Source: Erysipelatoclostridium sp. An173 | GTDB taxonomy: Bacteria > Bacillota_I > Bacilli_A > Erysipelotrichales > Coprobacillaceae | Direction of reading: 5' to 3' | Assembly (NCBI RefSeq): GCF_002160495.1 | Contig: NZ_NFKR01000021.1 | Location: forward strand, 1-47,656 | DNA: 47,656 nucleotides | In this document: piece after piece, positions 12,692 through 22,736 of the stretch | Layout: each line of letters begins with the position of its first letter | Position numbering within the stretch: position 1 is the first letter of the stretch | Notes under the pieces: model-generated | The model's input: only the letters and a program-made list of their open reading frames with translations | The model's database searches: none | Told to the model about the DNA's origin: nothing | Program-made: the position numbers and the translations under genes

Positions 12692-12700
12692 TTTTAACTA

Positions 12701-12729
12701 AGCATCGGTAATATTAACTGATGCTTTTA
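12701..12729 (+). terminator. Terminator after panE
   Basis: AGCATCGGT (12701-12709) pairs with ACTGATGCT (12717-12725, one G-U pair), loop AATATTA, followed by TTTA. Confidence 0.75.
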
Positions 12730-12888: not shown

Positions 12889-13719
12889 ATGAGAATTATA
12901 AAGGTATTTAATAATAATAGTGTAGCAGCACTGTCTAATGAGTTAGGCGATATTATTGTAACTGGCTCAGGAGTTGGTTTTCAAAAGAAAATTGGGGATT
13001 TAGTTGATGAAAATAAAATTGAAAAAACTTATTTGTTTAAAGGTAAGGATCAAGAAAAATTAACAAAAGATATTGAAAATATGGCCCCTATTTATTATGA
13101 GATAACTAATAAAATTGTAAGTAAGGCTAATAAAGAGTTAGAAACAAAATTTTATGGTGAGATTTTTTTGGCGATAAGTGATCATATTGCTTTTGCGATA
13201 AAAAGAATTAGAGAAAATATCAATCTTCCTAATATTATTTTAAATGATATTAAAGCGTTGTATAAAAAAGAGTATCAAATAGGATTGTGGGCTCTTGATT
13301 ATATTGAAAAGAAAACTAAAGTACGTTTGGAAGAGTCAGAAGCTGGATATATTGCTTTATATCTGGTTAATTTTTCAATGAGTGATAAAACTAATAATGT
13401 AGCTCAAGTTGTTACGTTAACTAAAGAGGTTTTAAGTATTATCAAAGAAACTATGGGAGTTGACTTTGAAGAAGATTCTATGAGTTATGCTCGAATAAGT
13501 ATTCGTTTAAAGTATCTAGCGGAACGTATTTTTCATGATGTAAAAGGTAATAGCAAAGATACAACCGCTAATATTCGCAAAATGTTAAAAGAAAATGAAC
13601 GTTTAGCATTATGCATTGAAAAAATTGTAGCAATGATCAAGCAATGTTACAATTATGAATTATCGCCTGATGAACAGACTTTTTTAGCAATTCATATCAA
13701 AAATAATGCTGGAATATAA
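12889..13719 (+). CDS. licT: BglG/LicT-family transcription antiterminator with degenerate PRDs
   Basis: An RNA-binding antiterminator of 276 residues. The N-terminal CAT RNA-binding domain (about 1-55) has the hallmark NNN at 8-10, and two PTS-regulation domains follow (PRD1 about 66-170, PRD2 about 175-276). In Bacillus LicT four histidines (100, 159, 207, 269) are phosphorylated by PTS proteins. Here H99 in SDHIAF and H269 in AIHIKN are kept, but the second PRD1 position is Y158 (IALYLVN) and the first PRD2 position is R206 (ISIRLKY). No PTS permease gene is in the window. The target is almost certainly the RNA antiterminator at 13773-13799, just downstream and before the surface hexosaminidase gene. 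Confidence 0.88.
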   Translation: MRIIKVFNNNSVAALSNELGDIIVTGSGVGFQKKIGDLVDENKIEKTYLFKGKDQEKLTKDIENMAPIYYEITNKIVSKANKELETKFYGEIFLAISDHIAFAIKRIRENINLPNIILNDIKALYKKEYQIGLWALDYIEKKTKVRLEESEAGYIALYLVNFSMSDKTNNVAQVVTLTKEVLSIIKETMGVDFEEDSMSYARISIRLKYLAERIFHDVKGNSKDTTANIRKMLKENERLALCIEKIVAMIKQCYNYELSPDEQTFLAIHIKNNAGI

Positions 13720-13731
13720 AAAATATGTTTG

Positions 13732-13760
13732 TTGACTAATGAAATTTGATTTGCTATAAT
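13732..13760 (+). promoter_or_regulatory. Promoter of the GH20 surface protein gene
   Basis: TTGACT-N17-TATAAT, with TG two bases before the -10: a near-consensus promoter 12 bases after the licT-like stop codon. Its strength makes downstream attenuation the likely control point. Confidence 0.82.
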
Positions 13761-13772
13761 TTTCAAAGAAAA

Positions 13773-13799
13773 GGATTGTTACTTTAAGTAGGCAAGACC
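13773..13799 (+). promoter_or_regulatory. Ribonucleic antiterminator (RAT) site
   Basis: The 27-base element begins GGATTGTTACT and ends AGGCAAGACC, matching the consensus halves of LicT/SacY-type RAT sites (GGATTGTTACT and AGGCAAAACC) almost exactly. It overlaps the 5' arm of the following terminator by six bases, so protein binding would exclude terminator formation. Confidence 0.92.
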
Positions 13800-13851
13800 A
13801 AATACAAAGTAAGTATGTTGAGACATGCTCTTTTGTGTTTGGTCTTTTCTT
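13794..13851 (+). terminator. Conditional terminator in the GH20 leader
   Basis: The 5' arm starting AAGACCAAATACAAA (13794-13808) pairs with the 3' arm TTTGTGTTTGGTCTT (13832-13846, one G-U pair), followed by TTTTCTT. Together with the overlapping RAT it forms a classical antitermination switch. Confidence 0.9.
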
Positions 13852-13895
13852 ATGTTTTGTAATGATTCAAAAATTGAGAAAGGGACAATGGGAAA

Positions 13896-16800
13896 ATGAA
13901 ACTAAAAAAGAAAAGTTTGGCAGCGGTGTTAACATTTACCATGCTATTCAGTTCACTTTTTAGCATTATTCCAGTAAAAGCAGAAGTAACAGATGGGACT
14001 AATTTAGCATTAAATAAAACAGTTACTGTTTCTGCTGAATATGGAGGTAATTTAGCTAAAGAGTATTTGACTGATGGTGATGAAGAAACACGCTGGTCAA
14101 CCGAAGCAGACGTAACTCAATGGGCTTATGTCGATTTAGGTCAAGAGTTCGAAATGAACAAATTCCAAATGATTTGGGAAAGTGATAGCGTTTATGCTAA
14201 AGATTATAACATTTACGTATCTAATAATGTTGATGACTGGGGTGAACCAGTTATAACAAAAACAGATAATAACACAAAGACAAGTGAAGATATCTTAACT
14301 ACAAAAGTAAGTGGAAGATACGTTAAGTTAGAAATTACTAGAATGCAAGGCTATCCAAATGTATCTTGTCGTGAATTTAAGATTTTCAATACTGATGAAA
14401 AATATCAAGATCCGACAACTAATGTTGCTTTAAATAAAACAGCGGTGGCTAGCTCTCAAGAAGCTGATAGTGTAAAAGCAGCTAATGCAGTTGATGGTGA
14501 TACCACTTCAAGATCATCACGCTGGGGAAGTGCTATTGGTAATGGACCAGATTGGATCTATGTTGATTTAGGAGAATCTTTAAATGTTAATGTTGTTAAA
14601 GTTTTCTGGGAAAACCGTAAAGCAACAGCTTATAAGATTCAAATTGCTAATACCGAAAGTAGACCAAGTGAAGGTGATTGGCAAACAGTAAAAGAATTTT
14701 CTGATCATCCAGCATCAATTGATGAAAAAATTGTTTTAGATCAAGTATATAAAGCCCGCTATGTTCGTTTATATATTGATTCTCATACTTCACAAGATCC
14801 AGATGGTGGTGTTGCATGGAATACTGTTTCTATTTATGAATTAGAAGTATATGGTGGTAATCCAGATACTAAACCGCCTATTAGTGAAGTATTAAATGGT
14901 ATTGAAGTTAAAACACCTGAAAAAGGTGATCAAAAATTAGAGGTAACTTTACCTGAAATTGAAGGTTATACAGTATCATATAACGGAACTGATTTTGAAC
15001 AAGTTGTTGATGATGATTTGACTATCTATCAGCCAGTTGTTGATAAAGATGTCAAAGTTTCTTTCAAAGTTACAGATACTGATACAAATGATTATCGTTT
15101 TAAAGAAGTAAACGTAACGATACCAGGTAAGTATAGCAGTGATGAAAGTGATAATAGTGCTCCTAATGTTTTACCAGAGCTTGCTGAATGGAAAGGCGGT
15201 AATGGTGACTTTGTAATTGATGGAAGTACTAAGATTGTTTATCAAGATGATGCTTTAAAAGCTACTGCTGAAGCTTTAGCAAATGATTATGAAGAATTAA
15301 CTGATAAGTCTTTAGAAGTTACTAAAGGTACAGCGGATAATGGAGATATTTCATTAGCATTAACATCTGATAAATCTCAAGGTTTACAAGATGAAGGATA
15401 TTTAATGGAAATCTCAAATAATTCAGTTGCTATAACGGCACAAACAACAACAGGAGCTTATTGGGCAACTCGAACTATATTACAAAGCGTAAAACAAACA
15501 GGTGATATTCCTTGTGGAATTACTCGTGATTATCCTTTATATGAAATTAGAGGATTTATTTTAGATGTTGGTCGTAAAACATTTACGATGGACTTTTTAA
15601 AACAAGTAGTAAAACAAATGTCTTGGTATAAGATGAATGATTTCCAAGTACATTTAAATGATAACTTAATTCCAATTGAAAATTTAGAAGATCCAATGAC
15701 TGCTTATTCAGCATTTAGATTAGAGTCTGATGTTAAAAAAGGTGGTAATGGTGGTTTAAATCAACAAGATTTAACAAGTACTGATTTATTCTATACTAAA
15801 GAAGAGTTTAAATCATTTATTAAAGAATCAAGAACATATGGTGTCAATATTGTACCAGAAATTGATACTCCAGCGCATTCTTTAGCTTTAACAAAAGTAA
15901 GACCTGACTTACGTCATGGTACTAATGGTCGTGAAAATGATCATTTAGCTTTACGAGATAAATATGATGAATCATTAAGTTTTGTTCAAAGTATTTTTGA
16001 CGAATATATGAAAACAGATGATCCAGTATTCGATCAACAAACAACAGTACATGTTGGTGCTGATGAGTATAACGCTGATAAAGAAGCTTATCGTAAATTC
16101 TCTGATGATATGTTGAAATATGTTCAAGATACTGGTAGAACAGCGCGTATTTGGGGAAGTTTAACACAATGTTTTGGAACTACTCCAGTTAGAAGCGAAA
16201 ATGTTCAAATGAATTTATGGAACTTTGGTTATGCAAATATGGATCAAATGTATGAACAAGGTTATGATTTAATTAACTGTAATGATGGTAACTATTATAT
16301 CGTACCAAATGCTGGTTACTACTATGATCGTTTATATGATAGTACGCTTTATAATTTACCAATCAATAGTATTGGTGGTGTAACTATCCCAGCTGGTGAT
16401 GAACAAATGATCGGTGGGGCTTTTGCAGTATGGAATGATATGACTGATTATTTAGAAAATGGTATTAGTCAATATGATGTTTATGATCGTATTGAAAATG
16501 CGATTCCATTATTTGGGGCTAAATTATGGGGTATCAATGATAACTCATTAGAAGAAGCTAATCAAATAAGAAATCAATTAGGTGGGGCACCAGGAACTAA
16601 TTTTGATTATCAAGTTCCAACTGATGAAAATGGTGTTATTGCTCATTATAAATTAGATGATTTAAGTGGTTTAACAGCAGGTACTAACGCTGATATTACA
16701 AGTGTAGATGGTCGTAATGCTTTACAATTAAATGGTAAAGAAAGTTATGTAACATCTCCAATTGTAACTGCTGGTTTAGGTAATGATCTAAGAGTTAAAG

Positions 16801-18792: not shown

Positions 18793-19488
18793 CTATATAA
18801 TTAAATTAACCACTAGTGGGGCAACGACTACAGTTAATAATCCTGCAATAACAATAGATAAACTACTCATAGCTCCCTCAATTTCACCAAATTCCAAAGC
18901 TTTAGAAGTACCAATAGCATGGGCACTATTACCTAAAGCTAAACCAATAGCAACCGGATGATGTATTTTAAAGATTTTAAAGATTCCTTTAGCAATAAGA
19001 GCACCGAGAATACCTGTGATAATAACTATTCCAACCGTGATAGTAGAATTCCCACCTAATTTATCAGAGATCCCGATTGCAATGGCTGTTGTGATTGATT
19101 TTGGTAATAGTGAATAAAAGATAACAGGTTTTGCTTTCATGATTAAACAAAGCACTGTAATTGAAATAATACCAGCTAAACAGCCACTAAATAAACTAAT
19201 TAAAATAGCATCTAAATGCTTTATTAATATTTGGGTTTGTTTATATAGCGGTATTGCAAGACAGACAGTTGCTGGTGTTAATAGAAAAGTAATAAATTGC
19301 GCTCCTTGATTATAGGTTTCAAAATCAATATCAAAGATAATTAGAAAGACAATTAAAAAAATAGCACTAAGTAATAATGGGTTAATAAATGAATAAGGCA
19401 ATTTTTTACGAATTTGCACAGCTAGCCAATAAGCTAACAAACTCATTACTAATCCAAAATAAACTGTTTCAACAAAAAACTCATTCAT
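18793..19488 (-). CDS. lrgB: LrgB/CidB-family membrane protein
   Basis: Polytopic membrane protein that works with LrgA. In staphylococci and streptococci the pair modulates murein hydrolase activity and cell lysis; plant and some bacterial homologues transport small acids such as glycolate or pyruvate. I place the start at the ATG at 19488, which overlaps the lrgA stop by eight bases and has AAAGGAAAAG upstream. A TTG seven codons earlier would extend it without a separate ribosome binding site. The 231 residues are almost entirely hydrophobic segments, and the GNSAHAIGTSKALEFGEIEGAMSSL region (written here only by its ends, GNSAHA to AMSSL) is the family signature. Confidence 0.9.
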   Translation of the reverse strand: MNEFFVETVYFGLVMSLLAYWLAVQIRKKLPYSFINPLLLSAIFLIVFLIIFDIDFETYNQGAQFITFLLTPATVCLAIPLYKQTQILIKHLDAILISLFSGCLAGIISITVLCLIMKAKPVIFYSLLPKSITTAIAIGISDKLGGNSTITVGIVIITGILGALIAKGIFKIFKIHHPVAIGLALGNSAHAIGTSKALEFGEIEGAMSSLSIVIAGLLTVVVAPLVVNLII

Positions 19489-19840
19489 GATTCTTTTCCT
19501 TTCTTTCAATGATTATTTGCGCTACTTTTCCAGTAACAGTCATTACTACAATAGTACTAATAAGCGTTACAATACTAATTAATAATAAATCCTGTAATAT
19601 TGCTTCACCAACGTTAATCAAACTAACAGCTGAAGGAACAAATAATACTGGCATAATTAAAATTAACCAGTCAGCAACATCTTCAACCTGCTTCAATTTT
19701 ATAATTCCTGAAAATAAGCAAATTAGCATAATTGAAAGGCCGTATACACTAGCTGGAATTGGAATAGGTAAGGTCAAAGCTAATAACTCACCAATAAAAC
19801 TAATAGTCATAATAATTAAAAATTGATTTATATATTTCAT
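19481..19840 (-). CDS. lrgA: LrgA/CidA-family holin-like protein
   Basis: A 119-residue membrane protein with four predicted transmembrane segments and a charged C-terminus (ERKEKNHE), as in the LrgA/CidA family. The segment PIPIPASVYGL (about 25-35) is the conserved family motif. It is the first gene of a two-gene operon with lrgB, with translational overlap. No LytSR two-component genes are nearby, so its regulator is elsewhere. A TATAAT on the minus strand at 19867-19862 is a likely -10. A holin-like role is family knowledge, not shown here. Confidence 0.9.
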   Translation of the reverse strand: MKYINQFLIIMTISFIGELLALTLPIPIPASVYGLSIMLICLFSGIIKLKQVEDVADWLILIMPVLFVPSAVSLINVGEAILQDLLLISIVTLISTIVVMTVTGKVAQIIIERKEKNHE

Positions 19841-21395: not shown

Positions 21396-22736
21396 TTATA
21401 ATATTTCACCATTACTTTCAATAACTTGTTTAAACCAATCGAAAGATTTCTTTTTTATACGTTTCATATCTTTTAAATCATGATTATCACGGTTTACATA
21501 AATCATACCATAACGTTTTTTCATTTGTGCCCGGCTGCTTAAAATATCAACAGGACCCCATGCTAGATAACCGCGACAATCAACACCTTCTTTAACCGCT
21601 AATTTCATTTGTTCGATATGTTTTTTCATATAATCAATGCGATAATCATCTTCGATTTTACCATCAATGATTTGATCATCATAACCAAAACCATTTTCAA
21701 CAATATAAATTGGCATTTCATAGCGATCATATAATTGTCTTAGAGTAATTCTTAAACCAATTGGATCAATTGTCCATCCAAACTCAGACATTTCTAGATA
21801 TGGATTCTTTTTAATAACAACATCATTAATATTAGTCAAGCTTTCTTCACCATAGTGTGAAATTGTAGACATATAGTAACTAATAGATAAAGAATCAGTG
21901 ATTCCTTTTTTCAAAATTTCTAAATCTCCATCAAGAATTTCTGGCATTGTTCCTTCATTTTGCATATTAGCATAATAATATGAATTATAATGTCCTCTAG
22001 CAAAAACATCTAAGAAAACATATGCTTCACTTTGAGCTTTCATACTTTCAAGAGTATCTAATGGATGACAGGTTTCAGGATAACTTTGAACAACAGTTGC
22101 CATTCCCATAACTTTACCACCTTTTTGATGGATATATTCGTTTATTAAACTGTGAGCGATTAAGGTATTATGCATTAATTGATTATCAAATGTTTGTGGG
22201 TTCATGTTTTCAGGACAAACTGCTCCAAAAAACATTTTTGGTCCTTTTTGAAGAATACCGTTTTGTTCATTAAAGATAATCCATTGGAATACTTTTTCAT
22301 GATAACGATCAACGATTTTTTTACATAGCTCAACAAAAATATCAACTACTTTACGACTATAAAAACCATTATATTTTTGATGTAAGAAAACTGGCATTTC
22401 AAAATGATATAATGTAGCAATAGGTTTGATTCCTCTTTTGATTAATGCATCAATAAAATGATCATAAAAAACAAATCCAGCTTCATTATAAGTAGTTTCG
22501 CTATCCATTAAACGTGACCAGTCAAAAGAAAAACGATAAGCATTAAATCCCATTTCCTGGAACATATTAAAATCTTCTTCATAACGATGATAAGCATCGA
22601 TACCATCTTTAAAATCTGAAAATTCACCAGTGACAGTTAAATCACAAACTGCTGGTACTTTACCGCCTTCACTGTAAGCACCTTCACTTTGATGAGCGGT
22701 TACTGCACCACCCCATAAAAAATCTTTTTTAAGCAT
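21396..22736 (-). CDS. GH1 family 6-phospho-beta-glucosidase
   Basis: Intracellular hydrolase of phosphorylated beta-glucosides, or a related beta-glycoside. The N-terminal FLWGGAVTAHQSEGAY signature of GH1 is at about 6-21. The acid/base glutamate is E157 in FNEQN, where Q replaces the usual proline of NEP, and the nucleophile is E347 in VENGFG. At 446 residues it is slightly short for the family (about 470). The phospho-enzyme assignment rests on the HQSEGA and C-terminal KKRYGMIYVN types of segments seen in BglA-like enzymes; an unphosphorylated substrate is possible. No PTS permease is adjacent and I see no RNA antiterminator upstream. AGGAGG precedes the start. Confidence 0.88.
   Translation of the reverse strand: MLKKDFLWGGAVTAHQSEGAYSEGGKVPAVCDLTVTGEFSDFKDGIDAYHRYEEDFNMFQEMGFNAYRFSFDWSRLMDSETTYNEAGFVFYDHFIDALIKRGIKPIATLYHFEMPVFLHQKYNGFYSRKVVDIFVELCKKIVDRYHEKVFQWIIFNEQNGILQKGPKMFFGAVCPENMNPQTFDNQLMHNTLIAHSLINEYIHQKGGKVMGMATVVQSYPETCHPLDTLESMKAQSEAYVFLDVFARGHYNSYYYANMQNEGTMPEILDGDLEILKKGITDSLSISYYMSTISHYGEESLTNINDVVIKKNPYLEMSEFGWTIDPIGLRITLRQLYDRYEMPIYIVENGFGYDDQIIDGKIEDDYRIDYMKKHIEQMKLAVKEGVDCRGYLAWGPVDILSSRAQMKKRYGMIYVNRDNHDLKDMKRIKKKSFDWFKQVIESNGEIL

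Follow-up and report, generated by a model that had tools for sequence, protein, structure and literature searches.

The window analysed here, a 47,656-nt stretch of Erysipelatoclostridium sp. An173 (genome coded G000, assembled in 122 contigs), carries an RNA switch in front of a gene for a surface hexosaminidase, and raises the question of which signal such a switch could obey at this place. Antiterminators bind RATs through their CAT domains and so keep terminators from forming; LicT, a protein of this kind, governs beta-glucoside genes. The first-pass annotation had read the locus as a licT-like switch of a type normally set among beta-glucoside genes, here placing a surface enzyme under carbohydrate-sensing control.

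All the parts that make up a complete switch in that annotation, namely a promoter, a RAT, an overlapping terminator and an adjacent antiterminator gene, could be located by sequence (Table 1). The promoter was the top match within the 10 kb scanned, a stretch that held fewer promoter-like sites overall than its shuffles (37 vs 58). The RAT was identified with the strict pattern GGNTTGTNACTN{4,12}NGGCNARNCC, whose gap was kept variable since a fixed 8-base gap misses this very site. Its core sequence and its overlap with the terminator are as in LicT, and the spacing between its conserved halves is presumably two bases shorter than in the usual LicT form. The long hairpin 3' of the RAT ends in GTTTGGTCTTTTCTT and folds with -24 kcal/mol (z -5.96; 0 of 200 shuffles equally stable), whereas the RAT half by itself reaches -4.9 kcal/mol, no better than shuffles (z about -0.6). 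Given this difference, transcripts should terminate by default, and the RAT would be expected to depend on a protein. A simple terminator scan did not report the hairpin, whose U-tract is interrupted, and an Rfam scan returned no family at gathering score, the best sub-threshold matches being SpF19_sRNA (32.1 vs 60 bits) and bglG-cis-reg (19.3 vs 80 bits). The leader thus shows the RAT overlapping an intrinsic terminator that marks targets of the BglG/SacY family, and a complete antitermination switch in front of the GH20 gene is well supported and, as far as sequence features go, confirmed.

Table 1. Coordinates of the features discussed (window positions unless a locus is named).
Feature	Position	Strand	Basis
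Terminator-like hairpin between upstream ApbA-domain gene and antiterminator gene	12700..12726	+	-12.2 kcal/mol, z -4.06
BglG/SacY-family antiterminator, CAT RNA-binding domain + PRD1 + PRD2	12889..13719	+	Pfam
Promoter, sigma-70 type, TTGACT-17 nt-TATAAT, TG before -10	13732..13760	+	11/12 consensus positions
RAT, 27-nt antiterminator hairpin, GGATTGTTACT-TTAAGT-AGGCAAGACC	13773..13799	+	strict pattern match
Intrinsic terminator hairpin, 5' arm shares last 6 nt of RAT	about 13794..13846	+	fold
GH20 beta-hexosaminidase, secreted, probably wall-anchored, 1620 aa	13896..18758	+	Pfam, motif, tail
GGAATGTTACTTTAAATAGGCATGACC-like elements	L152:116-142, L160:267-293, L122:2724-2750		

The target was also read correctly as a GH20 surface enzyme, since the protein matches the catalytic-domain families GH20 (PF00728, 106.3 bits) and GH20b (PF02838, 92.4 bits), together with three F5/8 type C, one laminin-G-like and three FIVAR domains. 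It contains an HVGADE motif, the D-E of which we take to be the GH20 catalytic pair, a putative signal peptide judged by eye, and a C-terminus of the form SAKTGD-hydrophobic-RRKED, a variant rather than LPXTG. Over its length it is 67% identical to the gene in the same place in G021, a genome of another genus. Downstream of it, on the minus strand, the window carries an LrgA/LrgB pair and a gene for a GH1-family glycosidase (18793-19840 and 21396-22736), the latter with no preceding RAT by the strict pattern.

The regulator scored 67.9 bits for CAT_RBD (cut-off 25) and 109.5 bits for PRD (cut-off 23), which are the domains of a BglG/SacY-family antiterminator, and it aligns with solved LicT fragments (PDB 1tlv, 6twr, 1l1c). 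Against the NCBIfam LicT equivalog NF046042, however, it reached 242.5 bits where the curated cut-off is 300, so that the licT-like designation held for a CAT/PRD antiterminator but not for LicT proper. The strict pattern found no RAT directly before the regulator gene in G000; a promoter-like TTAACT-16-TATAAT overlaps the terminator-like hairpin upstream of it. That no PTS gene lies close by was borne out: a scan covering 35 of the 43 ORFs of 100 aa or longer in the window found no PTS domain.

Further RATs in the same genome, which the first-pass annotation had suggested looking for, did not appear: the strict pattern matched once in the whole An173 genome (reversed-pattern control 0), against up to ten times in relatives. 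Across the genus we counted 39 strict RATs in seven of nine genomes (1, 10, 9, 6, 4, 5 and 4; G005 and G007 without any), and chance RATs were rejected on reversed-pattern controls of 0. Downstream of these sites lie 19 GH20 and 14 GH84 genes (33 hexosaminidases) and six others, encoding a GH2, a GH16, a GH141-like, an arabinofuranosidase-like and a DUF4082/lectin-like protein as well as L115. These assignments come from Pfam for 21 targets and, for 17, from clusters formed at an identity of at least 45%, with L115 left out of both; in the three-protein L101 cluster the GH20 domain sits past the first 1000 residues. L115 (L115:2781-5800, in G008) is a gene for a secreted beta-helix-like protein behind a RAT; its coding sequence extends over all three frames, so it is probably a pseudogene. 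Where a RAT-target protein ends in a stop codon, a short xxxTGD/xxxTSD motif followed by a hydrophobic segment and a basic tail (the latter two judged by eye) is present in 24 of 26 cases. By hand count over the nine genomes, about 18 of 48 GH20 and 14 of 31 GH84 genes carry a RAT.

The pair of regulator and RAT proved to be conserved in relatives. Among 43 family genomes the regulator clade (at least 54% identity, next-best relatives 38%) occurs in 14 and a strict RAT in 13, all of which fall within those 14. The remaining one, G040, has a RAT with its last base changed and a terminator before a gene that was judged GH84-type from its N-terminus only. Outside the genus the strict pattern matched 11 times, and ten of these RATs precede secreted-looking proteins; eight of these are GH20/GH84 (seven by Pfam, one via 67% identity to the window GH20) and two show F5/8 type C domains alone, in partial sequence. 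The eleventh (G036 C3) is associated with another antiterminator and with a gene of a different kind. The gene order in G021 is EIICB, regulator, RAT, GH20, RAT, GH84. In G020 (L197:3400-5300) about 2 kb separate the antiterminator from RAT-GH84 where G021 carries the GH20 gene, and this stretch appears to be what is left of a former GH20 gene.

A terminator overlapped the 3' half of the RAT at 42 of the 50 sites (39 in the genus, 11 outside) compared with 13 of 1000 shuffles, by a rule that demanded 7 or more pairs, a U-rich tail and a 5' arm within the final 10 nt of the RAT, and that eight sites fail. A control with swapped downstream sequences (293/394) was uninformative, since GGTCTT is common to most terminator arms. 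The two elements also appear to have changed together: by eye, the GGCGAG RATs (L085, L099 and L164; 3/3) pair with a CTCG terminator arm and the GGCAAG RATs with CTTG, the exception among GGCAAG sites whose arm reaches so far being L096:17588, which reads CGTG. L099 is among the eight sites that fail the overlap rule.

Several other elements and genes were seen in these genomes. A glucose-PTS-type antiterminator (about 30% identity) stands beside an EIIB gene in 9/9 genus genomes, as judged by eye; that it owns the RATs was rejected because it also occurs in G005 and G007, where strict RATs are absent. In G008 the GH84 gene adjoining the antiterminator (L118:9560-9640) keeps just the first RAT letters (GGATTGTTTTTAATTTAC), so the RAT next to the regulator appears to have been lost while four persist elsewhere in that genome. 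The antiterminator of G004 (L107, G004:C195:20480-21294) is broken by stops in the assembly, and four RATs are retained. Another RAT-like element, GGAATGTTACTTTAAATAGGCATGACC or a near match to it, in which ATG/CAT replaces TTG/CAA as a compensatory pair, precedes genes of the surface GH84/GH20 type in G004, G006 (two sites) and G008; no overlapping terminator was evident at these elements, and the one in L122 has a transposase-like ORF 201 nt upstream.

The missing transporter is better understood from the relatives. An EIICB gene lies directly upstream of the regulator, ending within about 20 nt of it, in 12 of the 14 clade genomes (PF00367 for the genus), a count that includes G003, where a contig end cuts the locus, and G004 with its broken regulator. 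All three EIICBs tested pass the N-acetylglucosamine IIBC model TIGR01998 (608, 563 and 578 bits vs 553). The beta-glucoside setting of the first-pass annotation therefore did not stand, and relatives have the GlcNAc-specific EIICB beside the antiterminator that characterises NagY-NagE, which the window lacks. The two regulators without an adjoining EIICB are those of An173 and G017. For An173, tblastn with the G001 EIICB on fetched EIIB regions found no nagE orthologue (best 33% identity), an absence that is not absolute because the assembly consists of 122 contigs; the cognate EII permease of a PTS-controlled PRD regulator was thus not recovered from this genome. The lack of a PTS gene in the window looks like a lineage-specific loss and not the normal design. 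Given the EIICB linkage in 12 of 14 genomes and the GH20/GH84 targets, the ancestral device was probably a nagE-linked, dispersed regulon of surface glycan hydrolases, probably GlcNAc-sensing, of which the window would be a derived form with a PTS-less locus, one RAT and two PRD histidines replaced.

These histidines follow the same division. At the positions of LicT H100, H159, H207 and H269 the window regulator has H99, Y158, R206 and H269 (H158Y, codon TAT; H206R, codon CGT), and so departs from the four conserved histidines of PTS-controlled PRD regulators. All four are kept by 11/11 intact PTS-linked copies and by 0/2 intact unlinked ones, an association between histidine loss and PTS loss that involves two unlinked copies only; the second, G017, reads C, H, H, H and has lost one. 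Among the 66 PRD columns that are invariant across the 11 PTS-linked copies the An173 protein changes four, two of them histidines (hypergeometric p 0.016). G017 changes 11 of all 92 invariant columns, including one histidine (p 0.45, not significant), and G036, which is PTS-linked and has the longest branch, changes 12/104 columns and no histidine. Few as the cases are, the replacement in An173 looks like a directed change rather than general decay. The base of the regulator tree is poorly resolved and compatible with a single origin of the PTS-less state, although G017 groups with G037 and G036; the window regulator sits on a long branch.

Taken together, we consider it likely that the locus is a RAT/terminator switch of GlcNAc-PTS ancestry that has become uncoupled in An173. 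Points against this reading are the eight sites that fail the overlap rule, the interrupted U-tract of the window terminator, a RAT that folds no better than shuffles, the four RATs retained in G004 despite a broken antiterminator, and the RAT lost next to the G008 regulator. The parts of this device, their overlap, conservation and co-occurrence, and the linkage to the PTS and its loss, are drawn from sequence comparison. For the way it works, we infer RNA binding, a GlcNAc signal with its polarity, the feedback through GH20/GH84 enzymes and the present activity state. By default, transcription from the promoter would halt at the terminator. The antiterminator encoded just upstream would bind the RAT via its CAT domain and stabilise the weak RAT hairpin, which uses bases of the terminator 5' arm, and so permit read-through into the GH20 gene. 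In relatives, an N-acetylglucosamine PTS permease would signal through this regulator: without GlcNAc, idle EIIB would keep it phosphorylated and inactive, and upon GlcNAc entry the phosphate would be drained and the scattered surface GH20/GH84 enzymes switched on, which could release more GlcNAc in a positive feedback. In An173 the switch would now be uncoupled from its original sugar sensor, because no permease gene was found, the regulator has other residues in place of two PRD histidines and one target is left. The carbohydrate-sensing control proposed in the first-pass annotation is probable for the ancestry and is the least secure step for An173 itself, where the nagE orthologue was not found and two of the four PRD histidines are replaced. 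At present, antitermination there would most likely be constitutive or low-level, or subject to residual control of H99/H269 by general PTS proteins. We give somewhat less than an even chance to the idea that the antiterminator was freed from the PTS by losing its transporter as well as phospho-acceptor histidines and that it persists, independently of the PTS, as a dedicated controller of a single host-glycan enzyme, with something similar in G017.

The retained histidines also allow a reading in which the switch is still under sugar control, H99 and H269 being sufficient for HPr or another EIIB, for example that of the C101 glucose-type PTS, to phosphorylate the regulator, so that GH20 expression would follow general carbon status and not GlcNAc. 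The protein is otherwise well conserved, with 6/92 invariant columns changed, and An173 has six EIIB-domain matches; two of the four phosphorylation sites are gone, however, and the cognate permease was not found, and we regard this reading as possible, though tentative and well short of probable. With a single strict site left in An173, one might further suspect an ordinary leader with an attenuating terminator, in which the resemblance to a RAT is inherited and out of use. We consider this unlikely: terminator, promoter and regulator reading frame are all kept, and RATs of other genera (G018, G020 and G021) match its 27 nt letter for letter, which suggests maintained selection. Finally, the lost histidines and long branch of the adjacent regulator and the presence of further antiterminators in An173, such as the one beside the C101 glucose-type PTS, would fit a dying gene whose RAT is read by another protein, but among the 43 family genomes strict RATs are confined to those with the adjacent type of regulator, the C101 type also occurs in the RAT-less G005 and G007, the adjacent regulator keeps 86/92 invariant columns, and the PTS operons of G002 and G005 that have other antiterminators are preceded by a different RAT-like element, GGxxTGTxACTCTTTGAGGCATxACC (L162:1501-1526, L161:1501-1526), which ends in GGCATxACC and probably represents RATs of another specificity class, all of which makes this reading very improbable.

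If uncoupling is correct, An173 and G017 would be natural examples of a sugar switch becoming uncoupled or rewired. The candidate regulon, with up to ten strict RATs per genome, could let bacteria of this family switch on an arsenal of host-glycan hydrolases by one released sugar, and the matched natural variants, linked with four histidines or unlinked with fewer, are suited to testing which PRD histidines carry the PTS signal.

Compared with LicT of Bacillus subtilis (PDB 1tlv, 1h99, 6twr, 1l1c), the window protein has the same domain layout, but it falls under the NCBIfam LicT cut-off and its ancestral partner was a GlcNAc-type EIICB. PRD-containing virulence regulators (PMC8560693) resemble it in that their phospho-histidines vary in position and number and that they govern host-interaction genes, whereas they bind DNA and the window protein is an RNA antiterminator. 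Phosphorylation of one PRD by EI/HPr activates and phosphorylation of another by EIIB inactivates (PMC8560693).

The nearest published system is NagY-NagE-HylA of Enterococcus faecalis, in which RAT/terminator elements place both nagY-nagE and the wall-anchored HylA under NagY control (PMC9981650). A 2025 paper gives 26 direct NagY targets, 23 with a putative RAT and one GH20 enzyme included (PMC12502629). Antiterminator control of a wall-anchored host-glycan enzyme has thus been published for NagY-HylA (PMC9981650), and the kind of control is known from the NagY papers; what is added here is the scale of the strict-RAT regulon, its near-exclusive surface GH20/GH84 targets and its PTS-uncoupled variants, and we found no prior description of a large strict-RAT hexosaminidase regulon or of uncoupled forms in the open-access literature searched. 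The two systems agree in a BglG/SacY-family antiterminator tied to a GlcNAc PTS permease (here, in relatives) and in a RAT that overlaps a terminator before an enzyme bearing F5/8 type C and FIVAR domains, wall-anchored in E. faecalis and probably so here (PMC9981650), and in having several dispersed targets with a GH20 enzyme among them (PMC12502629). They differ in that the NagY operon has its own RAT where none was seen directly before the EIICB-antiterminator pair here, in that the NagY reference RAT quoted in PMC12502629 has CATG arms where ours reads GGATTG/CAAGACC, and in that the window lacks the permease and has PRD histidines replaced. A further contrast with NagY is that strict RATs here lead almost exclusively to surface GH20/GH84 targets.
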